From NCBI GenBank assembly GCA_944325155.1, contig CALUYY010000003.1:1-64000 (forward strand): a stretch of DNA of 64,000 nucleotides, written 5' to 3'. The notes under the pieces are model-generated. The model saw only the letters and a list, made by a program, of their open reading frames with translations. It had not been told where the DNA came from and searched no databases. Origin of the DNA: Candidatus Gastranaerophilales bacterium (GTDB lineage Bacteria; Cyanobacteriota; Vampirovibrionia; Gastranaerophilales; Gastranaerophilaceae). Below are positions 19,631 to 44,119 of this stretch, piece after piece (position 1 is the first letter of the stretch; each line of letters begins with the position of its first letter). The position numbers and the translations under genes were made by a program.

Positions 19631-19924
19631 CTATCCGAATCGATACTCTACACCGGATGAATCTTTGGGATATTCCCATTCTATCGCATTGTACGGACAG
19701 CATATTCTGCATGTGCCGCATTCCAAACAATTTTCAAACTCAACGTCCAATGTATCGTTTTCATATTTATAAACGTTAGCGGGGCAAAAATACAGGCAGT
19801 TTTTATTTTCGCATTTTTTGCACAGTTCAACGTTTAGCTTAAGATGCCTATTATTATTGCAAATAAACCTTAAAGTGGCAAGTCTTTCATCAATTTCAGG
19901 GTTTAGATTATCCATATCAGCCAT
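19631..19924 (-). CDS. fixX: FixX-type ferredoxin-like protein
   Basis: Small iron-sulfur partner of FixC, which passes electrons from an electron-transfer-flavoprotein route to quinone or other acceptors. The 97-residue form has eight or more cysteines. CKKCENKNC and YFCPANVY make the first cluster region and CLECGTCRICCP followed by AIEWEYP is the FixX signature. The frame reaches 19954, but ATG 19924 lies six bases after the fixC stop. The nearest good ribosome site (GGAGG in the end of fixC) is 16 bases away, so coupling to fixC is likely. Confidence 0.88.
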   Translation of the reverse strand: MADMDNLNPEIDERLATLRFICNNNRHLKLNVELCKKCENKNCLYFCPANVYKYENDTLDVEFENCLECGTCRICCPYNAIEWEYPKDSSGVEYRFG

Positions 19925-19929
19925 TTTAT

Positions 19930-21237
19930 CTATATTACAGCCTCCAGTATACATTTAACAAAACTTATTACATCCGCCGTTAAGTCTTTTAATTTTCTTT
20001 CTTTTATGAAAGAAAACAGGAAATTTCTGTACTTATCTTTTTTGGGTATGTTATCGGGTGTTGTAAATATATTAAAAAATTCAATGATTTTTTTAGGATA
20101 ATAAGAAAATACGGATTCCCTTCTTTTAAACAGCGTTTCAATAACGCTTTTATAAGTTTTTAAATCCCTGATTACAAAACTTTTATATAATTCTTTTTTA
20201 TAATTTTTTAAAACCTTTTCGCTGAAATCATTTTTATTCAGTGCAATAACCGCAGTCTTTCCCGCCAGAATACCGCTTTTTATTGCAAGGTTTGTTCCTT
20301 CAAAATGAATTGAATCCACAAGATTTGCACAGTCGCCGACAAGCATACAGCCGTTATGATATAATTTGGGGATTTTTTTATATCCGCCCTCGGGAATTGA
20401 ATGCGCCCCGTATTCAAGAAGTTCTCCGCCTTCGATTAAAGGTTTTATAAATTCGTTGTTTTTTAATCTGTCAAGATATTCATACGGGGTTATTTTATTG
20501 TTCTTTAAATTTTCCATACTAACCCCGACGCCGATTGAAACGTTGTTTTTAAAAGTGTATAAAAACCCCATCGCTAAAGGCACATCTTCATTTTCTTTAT
20601 TCAATCCGCCGAAAAATTCATACATTGCACCTTCATTATCTTTTAAATTAAATCTTTTATTAATTTCATCGCTTTGTAATTTTATAACCTCTCTGACGCC
20701 TAAAATCGCATCCTTTGGTTCGGTCGCTTCTTTTAAACCCGCTTTATTCAAAAGAAGCGAATTAAACCCCTCCGCAACAATTACAATCGGAGCATAAATT
20801 TCTTCATATTCCGTTTTAACCCCGATTATTTTTTTATCCTTAATTATTAAATCAACAACCAAAGTGTCAATTGCAAAACAAACGCCTTCTTTTTTTGCTT
20901 CATCGGCAAGCCGGGAATCAAAATTTCTTCTGTATATACTTATCGTATTTTCATCATTTTTTTTATATGAAACCGATAACGACTCATCTTTATTAAAAAT
21001 TACATAGTTATGTTTTTTAATTATCCTCTCATAAGGAAAATTTTTATAAGTATCGGGGAACAGTTCTTTGATTGATTCAAGATAAACTGCCCCCCCGAAC
21101 AAATTTTTAACCCCGATGTGAGAAGATTTTTCAATCACAACAGGATTATACCCTCCTCTTTTAATCGTAAGTGCGCAGGCAATACCTGAAGGACCCGCAC
21201 CTACGATTATTGCATCAATTTTTTTATCATTCTCCAT
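19930..21237 (-). CDS. fixC: FixC-type electron transfer flavoprotein:quinone oxidoreductase
   Basis: FAD-dependent dehydrogenase of the ETF-QO/FixC family, which receives electrons from FixAB-type flavoproteins. The 435-residue form beginning MENDKKIDAII has the dinucleotide loop VGAGPSGIACAL (about 11-22). GGYKKIPKLYHNGCMLVGDCANLVD is split across about 285-310, and FEGTNLAIKSGILAG follows. The longer frame to 21273 contains the promoter itself, so I chose ATG 21237. No ribosome site is present and the promoter -10 box ends seven bases upstream, implying a leaderless message. fixA and fixB are not in this window. Confidence 0.88.
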   Translation of the reverse strand: MENDKKIDAIIVGAGPSGIACALTIKRGGYNPVVIEKSSHIGVKNLFGGAVYLESIKELFPDTYKNFPYERIIKKHNYVIFNKDESLSVSYKKNDENTISIYRRNFDSRLADEAKKEGVCFAIDTLVVDLIIKDKKIIGVKTEYEEIYAPIVIVAEGFNSLLLNKAGLKEATEPKDAILGVREVIKLQSDEINKRFNLKDNEGAMYEFFGGLNKENEDVPLAMGFLYTFKNNVSIGVGVSMENLKNNKITPYEYLDRLKNNEFIKPLIEGGELLEYGAHSIPEGGYKKIPKLYHNGCMLVGDCANLVDSIHFEGTNLAIKSGILAGKTAVIALNKNDFSEKVLKNYKKELYKSFVIRDLKTYKSVIETLFKRRESVFSYYPKKIIEFFNIFTTPDNIPKKDKYRNFLFSFIKERKLKDLTADVISFVKCILEAVI

Positions 21238-21243
21238 AATTAA

Positions 21244-21273
21244 ATTATACAATGGTGCTTTTACAATTAACAA
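21244..21273 (-). promoter_or_regulatory. fixCX promoter, probably leaderless
   Basis: On the minus strand, TTGTTA (21268-21273), an 18-base spacer and a perfect TATAAT (21244-21249). ATG 21237 begins seven bases after the -10 box, where transcription itself should start. Confidence 0.7.
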
Positions 21274-21284
21274 ATTTGTTAATT
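21265..21284. promoter_or_regulatory. Perfect 20-bp palindrome over the fixC -35 box
   Basis: AATTAACAAATTTGTTAATT is a perfect palindrome that covers the whole -35 box of the fixCX promoter and the stop codon of the upstream gene. It has no following T run, so it is more likely a regulator site than a terminator. Confidence 0.6.
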
Positions 21285-21620
21285 TTTATCGGGAATTTTA
21301 AATATAATTCCGCCCAAAAATGCCAGTAACAGCGACCCTAAAAGTGCGGGCAGAAATCCTTCAATTGTAACTCCCGGCGCAAAATATCCCGCAAGCATAA
21401 ATAAAAGCGCATTTATAACAAGCCCTAAAATCCCCAGTGTCAAAATATTAACGGGAAGCGTTATAATCATTAAAAACGGCTTTATGGAAGCATTTATAAG
21501 CCCCATTATAAAAGAAACCAAAAGCGCGCTTTGAAAATTTTCAACACTGATCCCCGGGATTATCCACGCAGCAAGCATTACACAAAGTGCAAACAAAATC
21601 CATCTTAAAATTAAAATCAT
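21279..21620 (-). CDS. Small four-helix membrane protein, YvlD/phage-holin-like family
   Basis: Inner-membrane protein of 113 residues with four hydrophobic helices. Family-like motifs are LRWILFALCVMLAAWIIPGI at the N-terminus, INASIKPFL near residue 53 and NILTLGILGLVINALLF near 70. The resemblance is to the PF04020 group, sometimes called phage holin family IV; there is no phage context here. The longer frame to 21653 is rejected because AAGGAGAAAAAT directly precedes ATG 21620. Function unknown. Confidence 0.8.
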   Translation of the reverse strand: MILILRWILFALCVMLAAWIIPGISVENFQSALLVSFIMGLINASIKPFLMIITLPVNILTLGILGLVINALLFMLAGYFAPGVTIEGFLPALLGSLLLAFLGGIIFKIPDKN

Positions 21621-21681
21621 ATTTTTCTCCTTTTTTATTGATTTTAATTTCAATTTAAAATTTTTAAATTAACTTACGGGA

Positions 21682-21957
21682 TTATATGCCTGATTTAATT
21701 TTTGAATTATTTTTTATATATTCAATAAGCGCTAAAGATAATTGATCGGGGCAGCTTGTCTGTTTTGAACCGCATTTAATGCCGTTTAATTTTAAAATAA
21801 CATCATTTATGTTCATTCCTCTTACAAGAGATGAAATTCCTTTTAAATTACCGTTGCAGCCGCCATGGAAATAAACATCTTTTATAATATTATCTTCAAG
21901 CTGAATTTCAATATACTCTGAACATGTTCCTTTTGTTTTATATCTTATAATATCCAT
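21682..21957 (-). CDS. TSCPD domain protein
   Basis: A 91-residue stand-alone TSCPD domain, named from the motif TSCPDQLSLAL near residue 67. CGSKQTSCPD and HGGCNGNLKGISSLVRG (about 31-47) are characteristic. In larger proteins this domain occurs at the C-terminus of adenosylcobalamin-dependent ribonucleotide reductases. The short stand-alone family has no proven role. It starts six bases after the PilC gene, so it is probably a passenger in the pilus operon. Confidence 0.85.
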   Translation of the reverse strand: MDIIRYKTKGTCSEYIEIQLEDNIIKDVYFHGGCNGNLKGISSLVRGMNINDVILKLNGIKCGSKQTSCPDQLSLALIEYIKNNSKIKSGI

Positions 21958-21963
21958 ATTTTC

Positions 21964-23184
21964 CTACATCTGGTTGTATGCGCCGAACAGAGGCATATAT
22001 AAAGCAAGTGCCAAAAACAGTACGATAGCGCCGATTACAATCAACATAAAAGGTTCAACCAATTTTGTAAATGTATCTATAATATCGTCAAGCTTTTTAT
22101 CGATATAAACCGTACAATTATATAACATCTCCCCTAAACGTCCCGATTGTTCGCCGGTTGCCACCATAAATAACATCATATTGGGTATCTGACCGGTAGA
22201 TTTCAGCGCCGCAGAGAGGTTTGTACCCTGTTGAACCCTTATTGCGGCAGCCGATATTGCTTCTCTTAAAACTGCGTTATCAAGCGTTAAATTTGCAAGA
22301 TATAAACAGTTAACAACGGGAATACCTGCATCGTATGCAACCTGCAGAACGGCAAGAAAGTTTGAATAATTTGAAAATCTCATCAAGCCGTTTAAAAGAG
22401 GAATCCTTAAAACAATTCTGTCTACTATTTTCTTTGTAACTTCATTCTTAAATATAAAGATAATGGAACCTATAATAACAAAAATTGAAATTATAATAAC
22501 CCACCAGAATTCCTGTATAAAGTGTCCTGCGTCAATACAAAATCTTGTAACGGCGGGAAGTTTACCCCCCAAACTGTCAAACATGGATTCAAAAGCGGGG
22601 AATACAAACGCAAGCATAATTAAAACAACAACGCATGCAAGCAAAATAACAAACACGGGATATACAAGAGCACCTATAACTCTTCCTTTAATTGATGCTT
22701 GTTTTTTTAACAATTCAAGCATACGTCCCAATGTTACATCCAATTCACCGGCGTCTTCCCCTGCTCTTGTAAGCCCCGAATACACCCTTCCGAATGCTTT
22801 TCTGTTTCTCTCCAAAGTTTCAGCCAGAGTTGAACCGTTTACGATTTGTTGTTTTAAAACATGACAAACTTTTTTAACATTGTTTGTCTCGGCGTTTTCT
22901 TCCATAAACGCCAATGTCTCGATAATGGGAATACCCGTTTGGGTTAAAATTTGAAGAGTGGACGTAAAATCTATTTTATCTTTCAAAGGCAATGCCGGAA
23001 GCTCGTTTTTCTTTGCTCTGGCGCGCTTTTCTCTTTCGGCAAAATTTGTATCTTCGGTAATTTTAACAGGATTTAAGCCCATTTTTCTTATAAGCATTCT
23101 TGCCGTTTTGACGTCAATGGCTTCAATGTTGCCTTTAACCGTATTTTTATTATTTTTCATTGCAATATAGTTAAAGTTGGGCAT
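21964..23184 (-). CDS. pilC: Type IV pilus / type II secretion platform protein PilC/GspF
   Basis: Inner-membrane platform protein that couples the PilB motor to pilin assembly. The 406-residue protein has two repeated cytoplasmic GspF domains (about 68-190 and 275-395). Three long hydrophobic segments lie near 165-195, 218-240 and 375-400. Diagnostic sequences are SRAGEDAGELDVTLGRML-like (RAGEDAGELD near 135), ATGEQSGRLGEML near 335 and GVYTPLFG-like YMPLFGAYNQM at the end. Its ATG overlaps the pilB stop by one base (TAATG). Confidence 0.93.
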   Translation of the reverse strand: MPNFNYIAMKNNKNTVKGNIEAIDVKTARMLIRKMGLNPVKITEDTNFAEREKRARAKKNELPALPLKDKIDFTSTLQILTQTGIPIIETLAFMEENAETNNVKKVCHVLKQQIVNGSTLAETLERNRKAFGRVYSGLTRAGEDAGELDVTLGRMLELLKKQASIKGRVIGALVYPVFVILLACVVVLIMLAFVFPAFESMFDSLGGKLPAVTRFCIDAGHFIQEFWWVIIISIFVIIGSIIFIFKNEVTKKIVDRIVLRIPLLNGLMRFSNYSNFLAVLQVAYDAGIPVVNCLYLANLTLDNAVLREAISAAAIRVQQGTNLSAALKSTGQIPNMMLFMVATGEQSGRLGEMLYNCTVYIDKKLDDIIDTFTKLVEPFMLIVIGAIVLFLALALYMPLFGAYNQM

Positions 23185-39436: not shown

Positions 39437-41461
39437 TTATCTCTTTACAATCCTTGCAATCAAGATATCTTTATCGGTTCTTATAACGGAAACATCATAA
39501 ATTTGAGAGCATGTTGAAACAAACTCCTTAAACGTTTTATATTCCAGCCTTAAATATATTAAATCGGATTTTGCTTCGGTTATCTTTTTTATTAATGTTT
39601 CCGTATCCGAGGGATATTTATACATAATAATTTCATCATCGTTATTTAAATATGAACGATACTGTCTTTTGTATTTTTCAAAATCATGCATCATGATTCC
39701 TTTTTTATATTTCTTAAATTCGGGCAATTTCGAATCATAATATGCATATTTAAAAAGGTTTTCAAATAACGTTAAAGAGGTTCTGTTTTTTTCGATATAA
39801 TCGCTGCCCCCGAAATAAAAAATAATAACAATAACCGCAAATATAATATTTATTATATTTTTCTTAAAAACGGCAAATATAGCCATAGCAATCGTTATTA
39901 CAATAAAAGGCAAAACGTTTATAAAGTAATATTCTCTTATAACGGGTCGAATTTGGGATATCAGATAAGAAGCGGCAAATAAAAATAAAATTGAATAAAC
40001 AGAATAAAGATAAATATTAAAATAATTTTTATCTTCCCTGAATAACAATGCTTTTATCTTCGGAATAAAAATACAAAATGCAATCAATAATATCAAAAAC
40101 GCCAAAATTTTACCCGCATAAAATTTTGAAAATATATTAATAATATCTTTAATTTCGGGTTTAACAAGAACATTAAAGCTGTTATCCAATAAAGCTTTAT
40201 TAAATGCGGTCATTAAAAAATAAGGAATAAAAGAAAATGCAGCCAAAAGATTGCAGATAAAAAATTTGATTCTTGATTTATTATCAAGCTTAAAAATTGC
40301 ATAAATAAAATTGCAGGTTAAAATAAGTATCTGGAAATAATGGGTATTTGCCATCAATATTGCAATAAATGCATAAATTATAAAGTCTTTATTTTGTTTA
40401 TTTTTAATTATTTTAAATAAATAATATGCGCTTAAAATTGAAAACAGTGCGCAGAGAGAATAAGCTCTGAATTCCCGAGCGGAATAAATTGAATAAATAT
40501 TTATCGCAAATAAAAACGAAGTCAAAAGCGCAGTTTTTTTATCAAGGTTTTCTTTTAAAAATATATAAATAATCCCGACGGTTAAAATTGAAAATATGCA
40601 GGGCAAAATTCTGCAAACGCCTTCATTATTGCCGAATATCATCATCCAGATTTTTGCAAGAATAAAGAATAAAGGCGGATTTCCGGGGTCAGAAAACGTC
40701 ATTAAAAAAGAATCATTTATATATGAAGCACACGTTGCCGTATACAATTCATCCGTCCAAAAAGTAAAATTATTGTCAGACAGTCTTAAAATAAGCGCCG
40801 ATAGCATAACCCACCATATAGCGTATGTTTTAAACATATTAAAACCGAGGGTTATTTTATCTTTGTTATTTATATAAATCAGAAAAGACGCAATAAGCCC
40901 CAAAAGAGGCAGCATATAAAATTTTGAATTATAAAATATTGAAAGAAAATAGATAAAAAAGTGTTTAAGGGGTCCTTTATCGGTTATATATCCCGAATTT
41001 TTATAATATTTGATATCGTTCGGAAATTTATAATATCCGTTTTTATCTTTATCGAATTTTAAAATGTCATCGCCCGTATAATAATAAAAACCGCGCCCGA
41101 CCGTAATTACCATATTTTTTATGTTTTTAATTTTTTCTTCTTTATTGTCTCCGTCAATTTTAAGCGCCATATTATAAATTTTTCTGTTATTAACGTCATA
41201 TCCCGTATAAGAATTTTTTGTTTTCATAATATAAGGCTTCAGTTCAATTCCGTTTAACAAAATATGAATATCCGGTATTAAACTTTTCGGCATTTCAATA
41301 TTAATTCTTATATCTGCGTCAATTTTTCCGAAAACGGGAATATTAAACTCTTTTGATTGAGTCATAAACGTTTTGCCGAATGAAAAAATGACAAAAATAA
41401 CAAGAATGAAAAATACGGCATTTATAAAATTTTTATTTTGTAAAAAAGATTTTACGGGCAT
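39437..41461 (-). CDS. GT39-like membrane glycosyltransferase (copy B)
   Basis: Polytopic inner-membrane glycosyltransferase of 674 residues in the ArnT/PMT fold class. These enzymes use polyprenyl-phosphate sugars on the outer face of the membrane. One N-terminal membrane helix is followed by an unusual soluble segment of about 150 residues. Some 11 hydrophobic helices come next, with the acidic motif FWTDELYTA near 235 and DPGNPPLFF near 257. A small C-terminal domain follows. It is clearly paralogous to the gene immediately upstream (copy A). Substrate unknown; lipid A, glycan or protein are possible. Confidence 0.8.
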   Translation of the reverse strand: MPVKSFLQNKNFINAVFFILVIFVIFSFGKTFMTQSKEFNIPVFGKIDADIRINIEMPKSLIPDIHILLNGIELKPYIMKTKNSYTGYDVNNRKIYNMALKIDGDNKEEKIKNIKNMVITVGRGFYYYTGDDILKFDKDKNGYYKFPNDIKYYKNSGYITDKGPLKHFFIYFLSIFYNSKFYMLPLLGLIASFLIYINNKDKITLGFNMFKTYAIWWVMLSALILRLSDNNFTFWTDELYTATCASYINDSFLMTFSDPGNPPLFFILAKIWMMIFGNNEGVCRILPCIFSILTVGIIYIFLKENLDKKTALLTSFLFAINIYSIYSAREFRAYSLCALFSILSAYYLFKIIKNKQNKDFIIYAFIAILMANTHYFQILILTCNFIYAIFKLDNKSRIKFFICNLLAAFSFIPYFLMTAFNKALLDNSFNVLVKPEIKDIINIFSKFYAGKILAFLILLIAFCIFIPKIKALLFREDKNYFNIYLYSVYSILFLFAASYLISQIRPVIREYYFINVLPFIVITIAMAIFAVFKKNIINIIFAVIVIIFYFGGSDYIEKNRTSLTLFENLFKYAYYDSKLPEFKKYKKGIMMHDFEKYKRQYRSYLNNDDEIIMYKYPSDTETLIKKITEAKSDLIYLRLEYKTFKEFVSTCSQIYDVSVIRTDKDILIARIVKR

Positions 41462-41463
41462 TT

Positions 41464-43446
41464 TTATTTCCTTTTAATAATTTTTGCGATTAACACGTCT
41501 TTATCCGTTCTTATGATTTCCCAACCATATCTGTCTGCAACCGTTTTAAAAAATTCATTCAAAATATTATATTCAAGTTTAAGATAAAAGCCGGTATTTT
41601 TTGAATTTTCAATTTCGTTTATTAATTTCTCAATATTTAAAGGCGGAGGTATAACGATAATTTCATCATTTTTATTCAAATAAGAAGGAAAAGCTTTTAT
41701 TATCATATTTTTTGAATGCGGGACAATTAATGCTCCTTTATTATCCTGTTTTGAATCACAATAATAAAATTTAACAAGCCTTTTAAAATCCAATAATCTT
41801 GATTTATCTCTGTTTATATAATTTGAATAAGAAAAATAAGAAAAGATAATTAAAATTGAAAGAAAATATGCCAAAACTTTTTTCCTTATGATAAAAATGC
41901 TGAAAACCGCCAAAATTACAAAATAAGGCAGTAAAATAACAAAATAATAAGTTCTTGCAATCGGTTTTATCAAAGAAAAAAGATAAGAAAATATAAATAA
42001 GGAAAAAATCATATAAAAGCAATAATAATAAATATTAAAAAAGCTTTTGTTATCAATAAATATTTTTTTTCTTAAAAAAAGAATAAAAGAAAGAATAAAT
42101 AAAATTAAAACAATAAAAAATGCCGTCTCCCCCTGAATAAATTTTATAAAAACATCAATATAAAATTTAATATCGGGCATTAAAAATTTATTGAATTCTT
42201 TATCCAAAAGCGCATTATTCAATGCTGTCAATAAAAAATAAGGAAGAAAAGACAAAAAAGCAATAAAATGAATTATAAAAAATTTTATCCTGTTTTTATT
42301 ATCCAAAAACACCATGCCTGAAATAAAATTTGAAATTAAAACAAGAATTTCAAAATAATGAAGATTAAAAGCAAGAATTGAAAAGATAAGATATAAAATA
42401 AAGTCTTTTGTTTTTTTATATTTTATTATTTTAAATATCAAATATGAAAATATTATTGAAAATAAAATACAGAGAGAATAACTCCTTAATTCCTGGGCGG
42501 AACAAATCGAATAAATATTAATCGAATATAAAAAACAAACAATATTTATAATTAAATTTTTATTTTCAATTTCAAGATTTTCTTTTAAAAATAAATAAAT
42601 AAAATAAATTGAAAAAAGAGAAAAACAAACGGAAAGAAGCCTTATATAACAGGGTTCAAATCCGAACATAAAAGAAAAAAATCTGACAAAAATAAAAAAT
42701 AAGGGCGGATTTCCGGGATCTGAAAATGTTTTCATAAAAGGCGAATTGATATTCCCCGCTTCATACAAGCTGTATAATTCATCCGTCCAATAAAAATGCG
42801 ACAAATCGGACAATCTTAAAATTAAGGCTAAAATTAAAATCCAAATTATCGGGTTTTTCTTTAAAAAAGAAAAACCTAAATTAATTTTATCTTTGTTATG
42901 AACATAAGTTATTACCGATAAAAAAAGAAAAAATAAGGGGATAATATAAAATTTGGAATTATAAAATATTGATAAAAAGAAAGTAAAAAATTTTTTTATA
43001 ATTCCTCTGTCCGTTATATATTTTGAATTTTTATTATATTTAACGTAATCGGGAAAAAGATATCTTCCGTTTTTATCTTTTTTAAAATTTTTTATATCGG
43101 CATTTGTAAAATAAAATAATTCCCCGCCGATTGATACAACCGCTTTTTCAAACCCGTTTAAAAAAGAAATTTTATAAACTGGATAATTGTTTAATTCATA
43201 AAAATCATACTTATTATTTTTAAAATTGTTTGTTTTATTTAATTCAATATCGTTAATAAAAATTTTCGCATTTTTTGACTGCATATTTATTCTTATATCG
43301 GCATTATCACCGTTAAATAACGGAATATTTAATTTTTGTTCGTTTATGTAAAACGAAAATAAAAATGCAAAAAATGAAACAATAAGGCATAAATAAAAAA
43401 TAAAGTTTATAAAAATTTTATTTTGAAAAGCGGATTTTAACAACAT
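41464..43446 (-). CDS. GT39-like membrane glycosyltransferase (copy A)
   Basis: 660-residue paralogue of copy B with the same plan: N-terminal helix, soluble domain with RINMQSKN and YVKYNKNSKYITDRG, then many membrane helices. It keeps the acidic motif FYWTDELYSLYEA near 220 and SDPGNPPLFF near 242, and ends with a matching tail (IIRTDKDVLIAKIIKRK). Similarity runs over the whole length, so the pair arose by tandem duplication. It overlaps the GT2 gene by 29 bases and ends two bases before copy B. Confidence 0.8.
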   Translation of the reverse strand: MLLKSAFQNKIFINFIFYLCLIVSFFAFLFSFYINEQKLNIPLFNGDNADIRINMQSKNAKIFINDIELNKTNNFKNNKYDFYELNNYPVYKISFLNGFEKAVVSIGGELFYFTNADIKNFKKDKNGRYLFPDYVKYNKNSKYITDRGIIKKFFTFFLSIFYNSKFYIIPLFFLFLSVITYVHNKDKINLGFSFLKKNPIIWILILALILRLSDLSHFYWTDELYSLYEAGNINSPFMKTFSDPGNPPLFFIFVRFFSFMFGFEPCYIRLLSVCFSLFSIYFIYLFLKENLEIENKNLIINIVCFLYSINIYSICSAQELRSYSLCILFSIIFSYLIFKIIKYKKTKDFILYLIFSILAFNLHYFEILVLISNFISGMVFLDNKNRIKFFIIHFIAFLSFLPYFLLTALNNALLDKEFNKFLMPDIKFYIDVFIKFIQGETAFFIVLILFILSFILFLRKKIFIDNKSFFNIYYYCFYMIFSLFIFSYLFSLIKPIARTYYFVILLPYFVILAVFSIFIIRKKVLAYFLSILIIFSYFSYSNYINRDKSRLLDFKRLVKFYYCDSKQDNKGALIVPHSKNMIIKAFPSYLNKNDEIIVIPPPLNIEKLINEIENSKNTGFYLKLEYNILNEFFKTVADRYGWEIIRTDKDVLIAKIIKRK

Positions 43447-44119
43447 TTTTTAATGCCTCAAAAAATATATCTTTGCTCATTTTTGATTCGCCGTATTTTC
43501 TGTCGGGAAATATTATCGGAAACTCAATATATTTAAACCCTTTTTTATAAGCTTTATATTTTAATTCAATTTGAAACGAATACCCTAAAGATATTATATT
43601 ATTAAGATTAATACCTTCTAAAACTTCTTTTCTCCAGCCGTTAAAACCGCCCGTTAAATCGTTAATCGGGCAAAATAAAATAACTTTTGAATATAGTGAG
43701 CCTGCTTTTGAAATTAAATTTCTAAAAAAGCTCCAGTTTTGAACCCCGCCGCCTTTAATATTTCTTGAGCCGATAACAAAATCATATTTTTTTAAATTTT
43801 CAAGCATTAAAGGAAGATACTCCGGCTTATGGGAAAAATCCGCATCCATTTGGATAAAACGGTTAAACCCCAAATCAATTCCTTTTTTAAATCCTTCAAT
43901 ATATGCGCTTGCAAGCCCCTGTTTTTTTGTCCTTTTTAAAATATAAATTCTTTTATCCAGCATTTGATGAACAATCTCCGCCGTGCCGTCCGGGGAATTA
44001 TCATCGACGATTAAAATGTTTATATCGGGACATGTTTTAAAAATTTCATTTATTATAAATTTGATGTTTAATGCTTCGTTGTATGTAGGAATTATAACTA
44101 AAGGCTTAAAATCTTCCAT
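43418..44119 (-). CDS. GT2 polyprenyl-phosphate sugar synthase (Dpm1-like)
   Basis: Probably makes a polyprenyl-phosphate-linked hexose (mannose or glucose) on the cytoplasmic face, the donor for the two membrane glycosyltransferases that follow. The 233-residue GT2 protein has PTYNEALNI (about 11), DDNSPDGTAEIV (about 39) and the metal DxD in QMDADFSHKPEYL (about 91). The family sequence DLTGGFNGWRKEVL is near 155. It has no C-terminal membrane helices. It starts one base after nrdG and overlaps the next gene. Confidence 0.87.
   Translation of the reverse strand: MEDFKPLVIIPTYNEALNIKFIINEIFKTCPDINILIVDDNSPDGTAEIVHQMLDKRIYILKRTKKQGLASAYIEGFKKGIDLGFNRFIQMDADFSHKPEYLPLMLENLKKYDFVIGSRNIKGGGVQNWSFFRNLISKAGSLYSKVILFCPINDLTGGFNGWRKEVLEGINLNNIISLGYSFQIELKYKAYKKGFKYIEFPIIFPDRKYGESKMSKDIFFEALKNVVKIRFSK

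Follow-up and report, generated by a model that had tools for sequence, protein, structure and literature searches.

The fixC-like gene of this Gastranaerophilales genome is very probably transcribed as a leaderless message, which starts directly at its start codon. The window, that is the whole stretch of 64,000 nucleotides analysed, carries the gene on the minus strand behind what appears to be an ordinary sigma-70-type promoter, and a perfect 20-bp palindrome over this promoter most likely takes no part in the mechanism. We give this joint reading, which is based on sequence comparison, a probability of about 0.8. The -10 box TATAAT of the putative sigma-70-type promoter ends six bases before the ATG, and from the position of this box polymerase would start at the A of the ATG or one or two bases away. 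The fixC message would then begin with AUG, having neither a leader nor a ribosome-binding site, and initiation on this 5′-terminal AUG would probably be by an intact 70S ribosome. The palindrome would be most likely a bystander, and presumably no operator is involved.

The gene itself (positions 19930-21237, minus strand) encodes an FAD oxidoreductase of 435 aa, which matched PF21162 with 34.3 bits (cut-off 27.7). Its best NCBIfam matches were PRK10015 and PRK10157 (FixC), both under the cut-off (for PRK10157, 229 bits versus 610). An ORF for a ferredoxin overlaps the end of fixC on the same strand (19631-19954, true start uncertain); it matched PF05187 with 32.4 bits (cut-off 24) and the NCBIfam FixX model PRK15449 with 48.9 bits at a cut-off of 166. 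Because the NCBIfam FixC and FixX models remained under their cut-offs, the names are used here only in the sense of FixC-like and FixX-like. The marks of the FixC/ETF-quinone oxidoreductase type were found, namely the FAD-binding N-terminus, the ETF-QO quinone-binding domain, the adjoining FixX-type ferredoxin, and ETF genes in the genome, which encodes two ETF (FixAB-type) domains at a separate locus, G000:C4:12718-13954. The original prediction spoke of a common fixCX message, and of this only the overlap of two ORFs on the same strand could be retained. Inside the end of fixC (19910-19960, minus strand) a GGAGG word stands about 16 nt, which is a long spacing, before the likeliest ATG of fixX. 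On the upstream side, 41 nt separate the fixC ATG from a gene for a PF04020 membrane protein (21279-21653, minus strand).

Farther along the window (39437-43446, minus strand) two adjacent genes encode membrane proteins (674 and 660 aa) that visibly resemble each other. The A+T content of the window is highest here (GC 0.252 at 40001-44000), and a glycosyltransferase-like ORF at 43418-44119 adjoins them.

The ATG of fixC (21235-21237, minus strand) is the only in-frame ATG, GTG, or TTG before the conserved N-terminal stretch, and in the relatives L007-L011 the reading frame is closed by a stop two codons ahead of the corresponding ATG; for both reasons we regard it as a sound start codon. The -10 box TATAAT occupies 21244-21249 (minus strand), so that its first T lies 12 nt before the ATG. 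At 18 nt from it stands a -35-like box, TTGTTA (21268-21273, minus strand), with four of the six consensus bases. Since the scanned region held 6 promoter-like sites versus 4.2 in shuffles, the -35 match by itself is weak. The arrangement TTGTTA-18-TATAAT had been predicted correctly, on the minus strand, and the start codon said to follow seven bases later does so if the A of the ATG is counted as the seventh, six bases lying between. The predicted lack of a ribosome site was confirmed as well, as the scan of the region before the ATG found no SD-type word. SD words would be usable in this genome, as its 16S 3′ end carries CCTCCT. The leaderless nature of the gene, also predicted, now draws support from a spacing peak over the genome, from the promoters of the genus, and from a two-way pattern among 73 orthologues.

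The genome sample comprised 464 kb (the window plus 400 kb) with 370 genes having a usable first ATG; genes were called mechanically, as long ORFs beginning at their first ATG, which leaves the true numbers uncertain. TATAAT stood exactly 6 nt before the first ATG in 12 of these 370 genes, versus a mean of 1.14 and a maximum of 5 at distances of 10-59 nt (Poisson P 3.5e-9), and this is not chance. The form TAnnAT was found at the same distance in 26 genes (mean 6.2, P 2.3e-9), and the looser TANNNT gave a weaker peak (30 versus 15.2, P 5e-4). No such spacing peak was seen at 1631 internal ATGs. SD-like words precede 148 of the 370 first ATGs: 2 of the 38 starts having TAnnAT at 6 or 7 nt possess one, versus 146 of the other 332. 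The leaderless share would thus be roughly 5-10% of starts, the 38/370 including chance matches. Do these genes have a common function? Ten proteins, picked from 51 box-bearing starts, were scanned for domains, among them guanylate kinase, DAHP synthase, a poly-A-polymerase head-domain protein, PdxJ, IspD, and a response regulator. With such a mixture the class is not a redox regulon. As judged from these comparisons, fixC is one case of a leaderless gene class in the genome and in the family.

In the genus, fixC is present in all nine genomes, and the FixC identity between the window and its nearest relatives does not exceed 67%. Eight of the nine have TATAAT before the fixC ATG without SD, at 6 nt in seven genomes and at 7 nt in L012; the MAFFT alignment of the nine promoters misplaced L012 and was not used for these counts. 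L013 (G003) is the sole genus genome without a -10 box before fixC, and here the gene may depend on read-through.

The comparison was extended to 73 fixC loci, 9 belonging to the genus and 64 to the rest of the family. FixC matches weaker than E 1e-80 were left out as other flavoproteins, and G063:C9:4-936 (a FixC match) and the pieces L015 (G002) and G063:C29 were also left out of the count. A leaderless-type promoter, with a TATAAT-like box (two of them TAAAAT) 6-8 nt before the ATG and no SD word, was found at 24 loci, the distance being 6 nt in 19, 7 nt in three, and 8 nt in two. At 36 loci the box lies 15 nt or more from the ATG and is accompanied by SD; at 10 it lies equally far without an SD word, and three loci have neither box nor SD. 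A near box together with SD was found at none of the 73. This exclusion is weak evidence, because a near -10 box occupies the place of the SD and the matter is partly one of space; the fixed distance is strong evidence.

The leaderless type of fixC occurs in 11 genera and the type with leader and SD in 21. In the phylogeny of FixC, a branch supported by SH-aLRT 99 separates 19 rows from six genera, which are 18 of the leaderless type plus L013, and the tree needs at least 5 changes between the leaderless and leadered states. The closest contrast was found in genus g38, where the promoters of G045 and G074 are identical up to TTTAGTGTATAAT; after this point 6 nt remain to the ATG in one genome versus 19 nt carrying GGGAG in the other. 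This pair represents a natural experiment, one promoter before the same gene with or without 13 nt of SD-bearing leader. The gene itself is not universal in the family: a FixC match is missing in 8 of 78 genomes and is only weak in two more from one genus (G047 and G076), so that some genera have lost fixC or have something else in its place. A scan of genome contigs with FixC matched one distant archaeal locus.

Two other explanations of the start region dispense with the promoter. In one of them transcription enters fixC from the PF04020 gene upstream, translation relies on reinitiation or an SD-less start, and TATAAT is a relic. The same-strand gene does end 41 nt upstream, no terminator-like site was found at 21150-22050, and L013 exists without the box. 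However, the box and its distance of 6-7 nt are kept in eight of nine genus genomes while the surrounding sequence drifts, and they are kept also in other genera with different upstream DNA, for example in L027 and L050, so that we regard this explanation as very unlikely. Read-through may still place fixC on a second message besides its own. The other explanation, with the promoter elsewhere, sets the translation start at an upstream in-frame TTG (21252 or 21273). The frame is open back to the TTG at 21273, but in L007-L011 an in-frame stop stands two codons before the ATG and neither TTG is preceded by an SD word, which makes such a start extremely improbable.

The palindrome (21265-21284) is exact over 20 bp and contains the -35 box TTGTTA, as had been described, and its left arm includes the stop codon of the PF04020 gene (21281-21279). 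The original prediction saw in it the site of a dimeric, possibly redox-responsive regulator, which blocks polymerase directly. A real operator of this kind, bound by a dimeric repressor private to the species or strain group and acting at the -35 of leaderless fixC, seems to us very unlikely. Within 65 nt upstream of fixC no dyad scores higher than its perfect 10-bp arms over the -35 box, with 10 pairs, and none of 300 local mononucleotide shuffles was as good; a Rex-type DNA-binding domain is encoded in the genome; in the same genome the promoter of a DtxR/MntR-type repressor gene, also of the leaderless type, carries a comparable palindrome; and the 67% identity of the nearest relatives in FixC leaves room for a species-specific site. 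Yet the 20-mer is single-copy in the genome (5 places with up to 3 mismatches, versus 6 for the reversed control), and its 16-mer core with up to 2 mismatches gave a summed count of 114 places over the nine genus genomes versus 132 for the reversed-pattern control. In the other eight fixC promoters of the genus the operator-like dyad is absent, the best dyad in 65 nt having 4-6 pairs and being equalled by 149 to 300 of 300 shuffles. Over the 464 kb, 3 palindromes had arms of exactly 10, versus about 1.8 in block shuffles, and therefore one such palindrome somewhere is unremarkable. With arms of 10 or more there were 11 versus 2.4, the excess sitting in arms of 12 or more (7 versus 0.0).

Rex and FNR/CRP operators are A+T-rich dyads over promoters, and in this respect the palindrome resembles them. 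In contrast to the Rex site, the half-sites here, TTAACAA-AT-TTGTTAA, stand in reverse order. A cNMP-binding (CRP/FNR-type) domain was not found in the genome, and no Rex-like or FNR-like site was present at 21000-21500 within the allowed mismatches to the consensus words. A redox operator is expected to recur in other promoters and to be conserved in relatives, and the palindrome does neither. Search of the genome and its relatives for further copies, which the original prediction had proposed while naming a solitary, unconserved palindrome as grounds for giving up the operator, found it only here and not conserved. As a regulon motif it is ruled out by the genome, genus, and fixC-promoter comparisons. 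Its role as a terminator was also rejected, in view of the 0 terminator-like sites in the region and of the missing U run after it on the minus strand; the 20-mer alone folds into an 8-bp hairpin of -3.8 kcal/mol. Most likely the dyad is a product of the junction between the last codons of the PF04020 gene (AAT TAA) and the TTGTTA box, and it is probably a coincidence. A perfect 20-bp dyad in A+T-rich DNA should therefore be viewed with caution, as it can be coincidental.

Two longer palindromes were observed elsewhere in the same genome. One, perfect over 24 bp (L066:6183-6206, G000:C5), overlaps the -10 box of the leaderless-type gene L066:5641-6177 (minus strand), which encodes the DtxR/MntR-type repressor (PF01325, PF02742). 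It resembles a site through which the repressor would regulate its own promoter of leaderless type, the kind of arrangement that had been proposed for fixC. The other, perfect over 38 bp (L065:9585-9622, G000:C4), lies near the MarR-type gene L065:9093-9413 (minus strand), whose true start is probably further upstream, and may be an autoregulatory site or a terminator.

How far does the leaderless class, of which fixC appears to be a member, reach across Cyanobacteriota? We took raw counts of TATAAT-N6-ATG versus TATAAT-N12-ATG in 117 genomes of the phylum: 48 of the window's family, 48 with PsaA/PsaB, and 21 others. The PsaA/PsaB genes in 48 of the 117 point to Cyanobacteriota as the phylum, and the search for them matched Synechococcus elongatus alone of 14 control genomes. 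In the window's family N6 exceeded N12 in all 48 genomes (5878 versus 2447 in total), in the PsaA/PsaB genomes in 22 of 48 (1353 versus 1321), and in the remaining 21 genomes in 18 (718 versus 442), the family f16 among these last showing no excess (251 versus 249). Gene starts in two further members of the window's family were also inspected. TATAAT stood at 6 nt in 5 of 154 starts of G083 (background 0.84, P 1.7e-3), and more weakly in 3 of 147 of G039 (background 0.56, P 0.02; for TAnnAT, P 0.09). In the PsaA-bearing genomes G124 and G085 it was found at none of 116 and none of 145 starts, respectively, which are small samples, and in large photosynthetic genomes the background can mask a few leaderless genes. 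We consider it likely that leaderless starts with a -10 box beside the ATG are a standing class in the non-photosynthetic relatives and are missing or very rare in the photosynthetic members, and that related species have replaced a leaderless fixC message with an SD-led one behind almost the same promoter. If so, a phylum said to use few leaderless genes is divided, with leaderless starts in use in the non-photosynthetic branches. For this group, gene callers should then accept SD-less starts where TATAAT sits 6-7 nt upstream.

A literature search for leaderless genes in Melainabacteria, Gastranaerophilales, or Vampirovibrio found nothing, most subscription papers lying outside its reach. Leaderless genes of the TA-led type are an established bacterial class, as set out in the relevant passages of Zheng et al. 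2011 (PMC3160421). These describe a TANNNT box whose first T lies about 12 nt before the start codon, the absence of SD, positional clustering over the genome, and orthologues that switch between the SD-led and leaderless states. By its sequence fixC agrees in each point: the first T is at 12 nt, SD is absent, boxes cluster over the genome at one distance, and its orthologues are of both kinds. The same passages state that in many Cyanobacteria genomes neither SD-led nor leaderless genes are in use; in contrast, the class described here occurs in non-photosynthetic members of the same phylum, alongside SD-like words at 148 of 370 starts. Another parallel is offered by the -10-motif genes of Deinococcus-Thermus, as outlined in PMC12340547, where the motif lies about 6-7 bp before the ORF, the message is leaderless (as is predicted here), and 70S ribosomes are said to take such messages. 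According to that paper, nearly one third of genes belong to the class there, whereas here the share is roughly 5-10% of starts, and the box here is usually fuller, TATAAT or TAAAAT. The probably leaderless fixC thus adds another case to a known gene class, and its orthologues offer an evolutionary contrast of some use.
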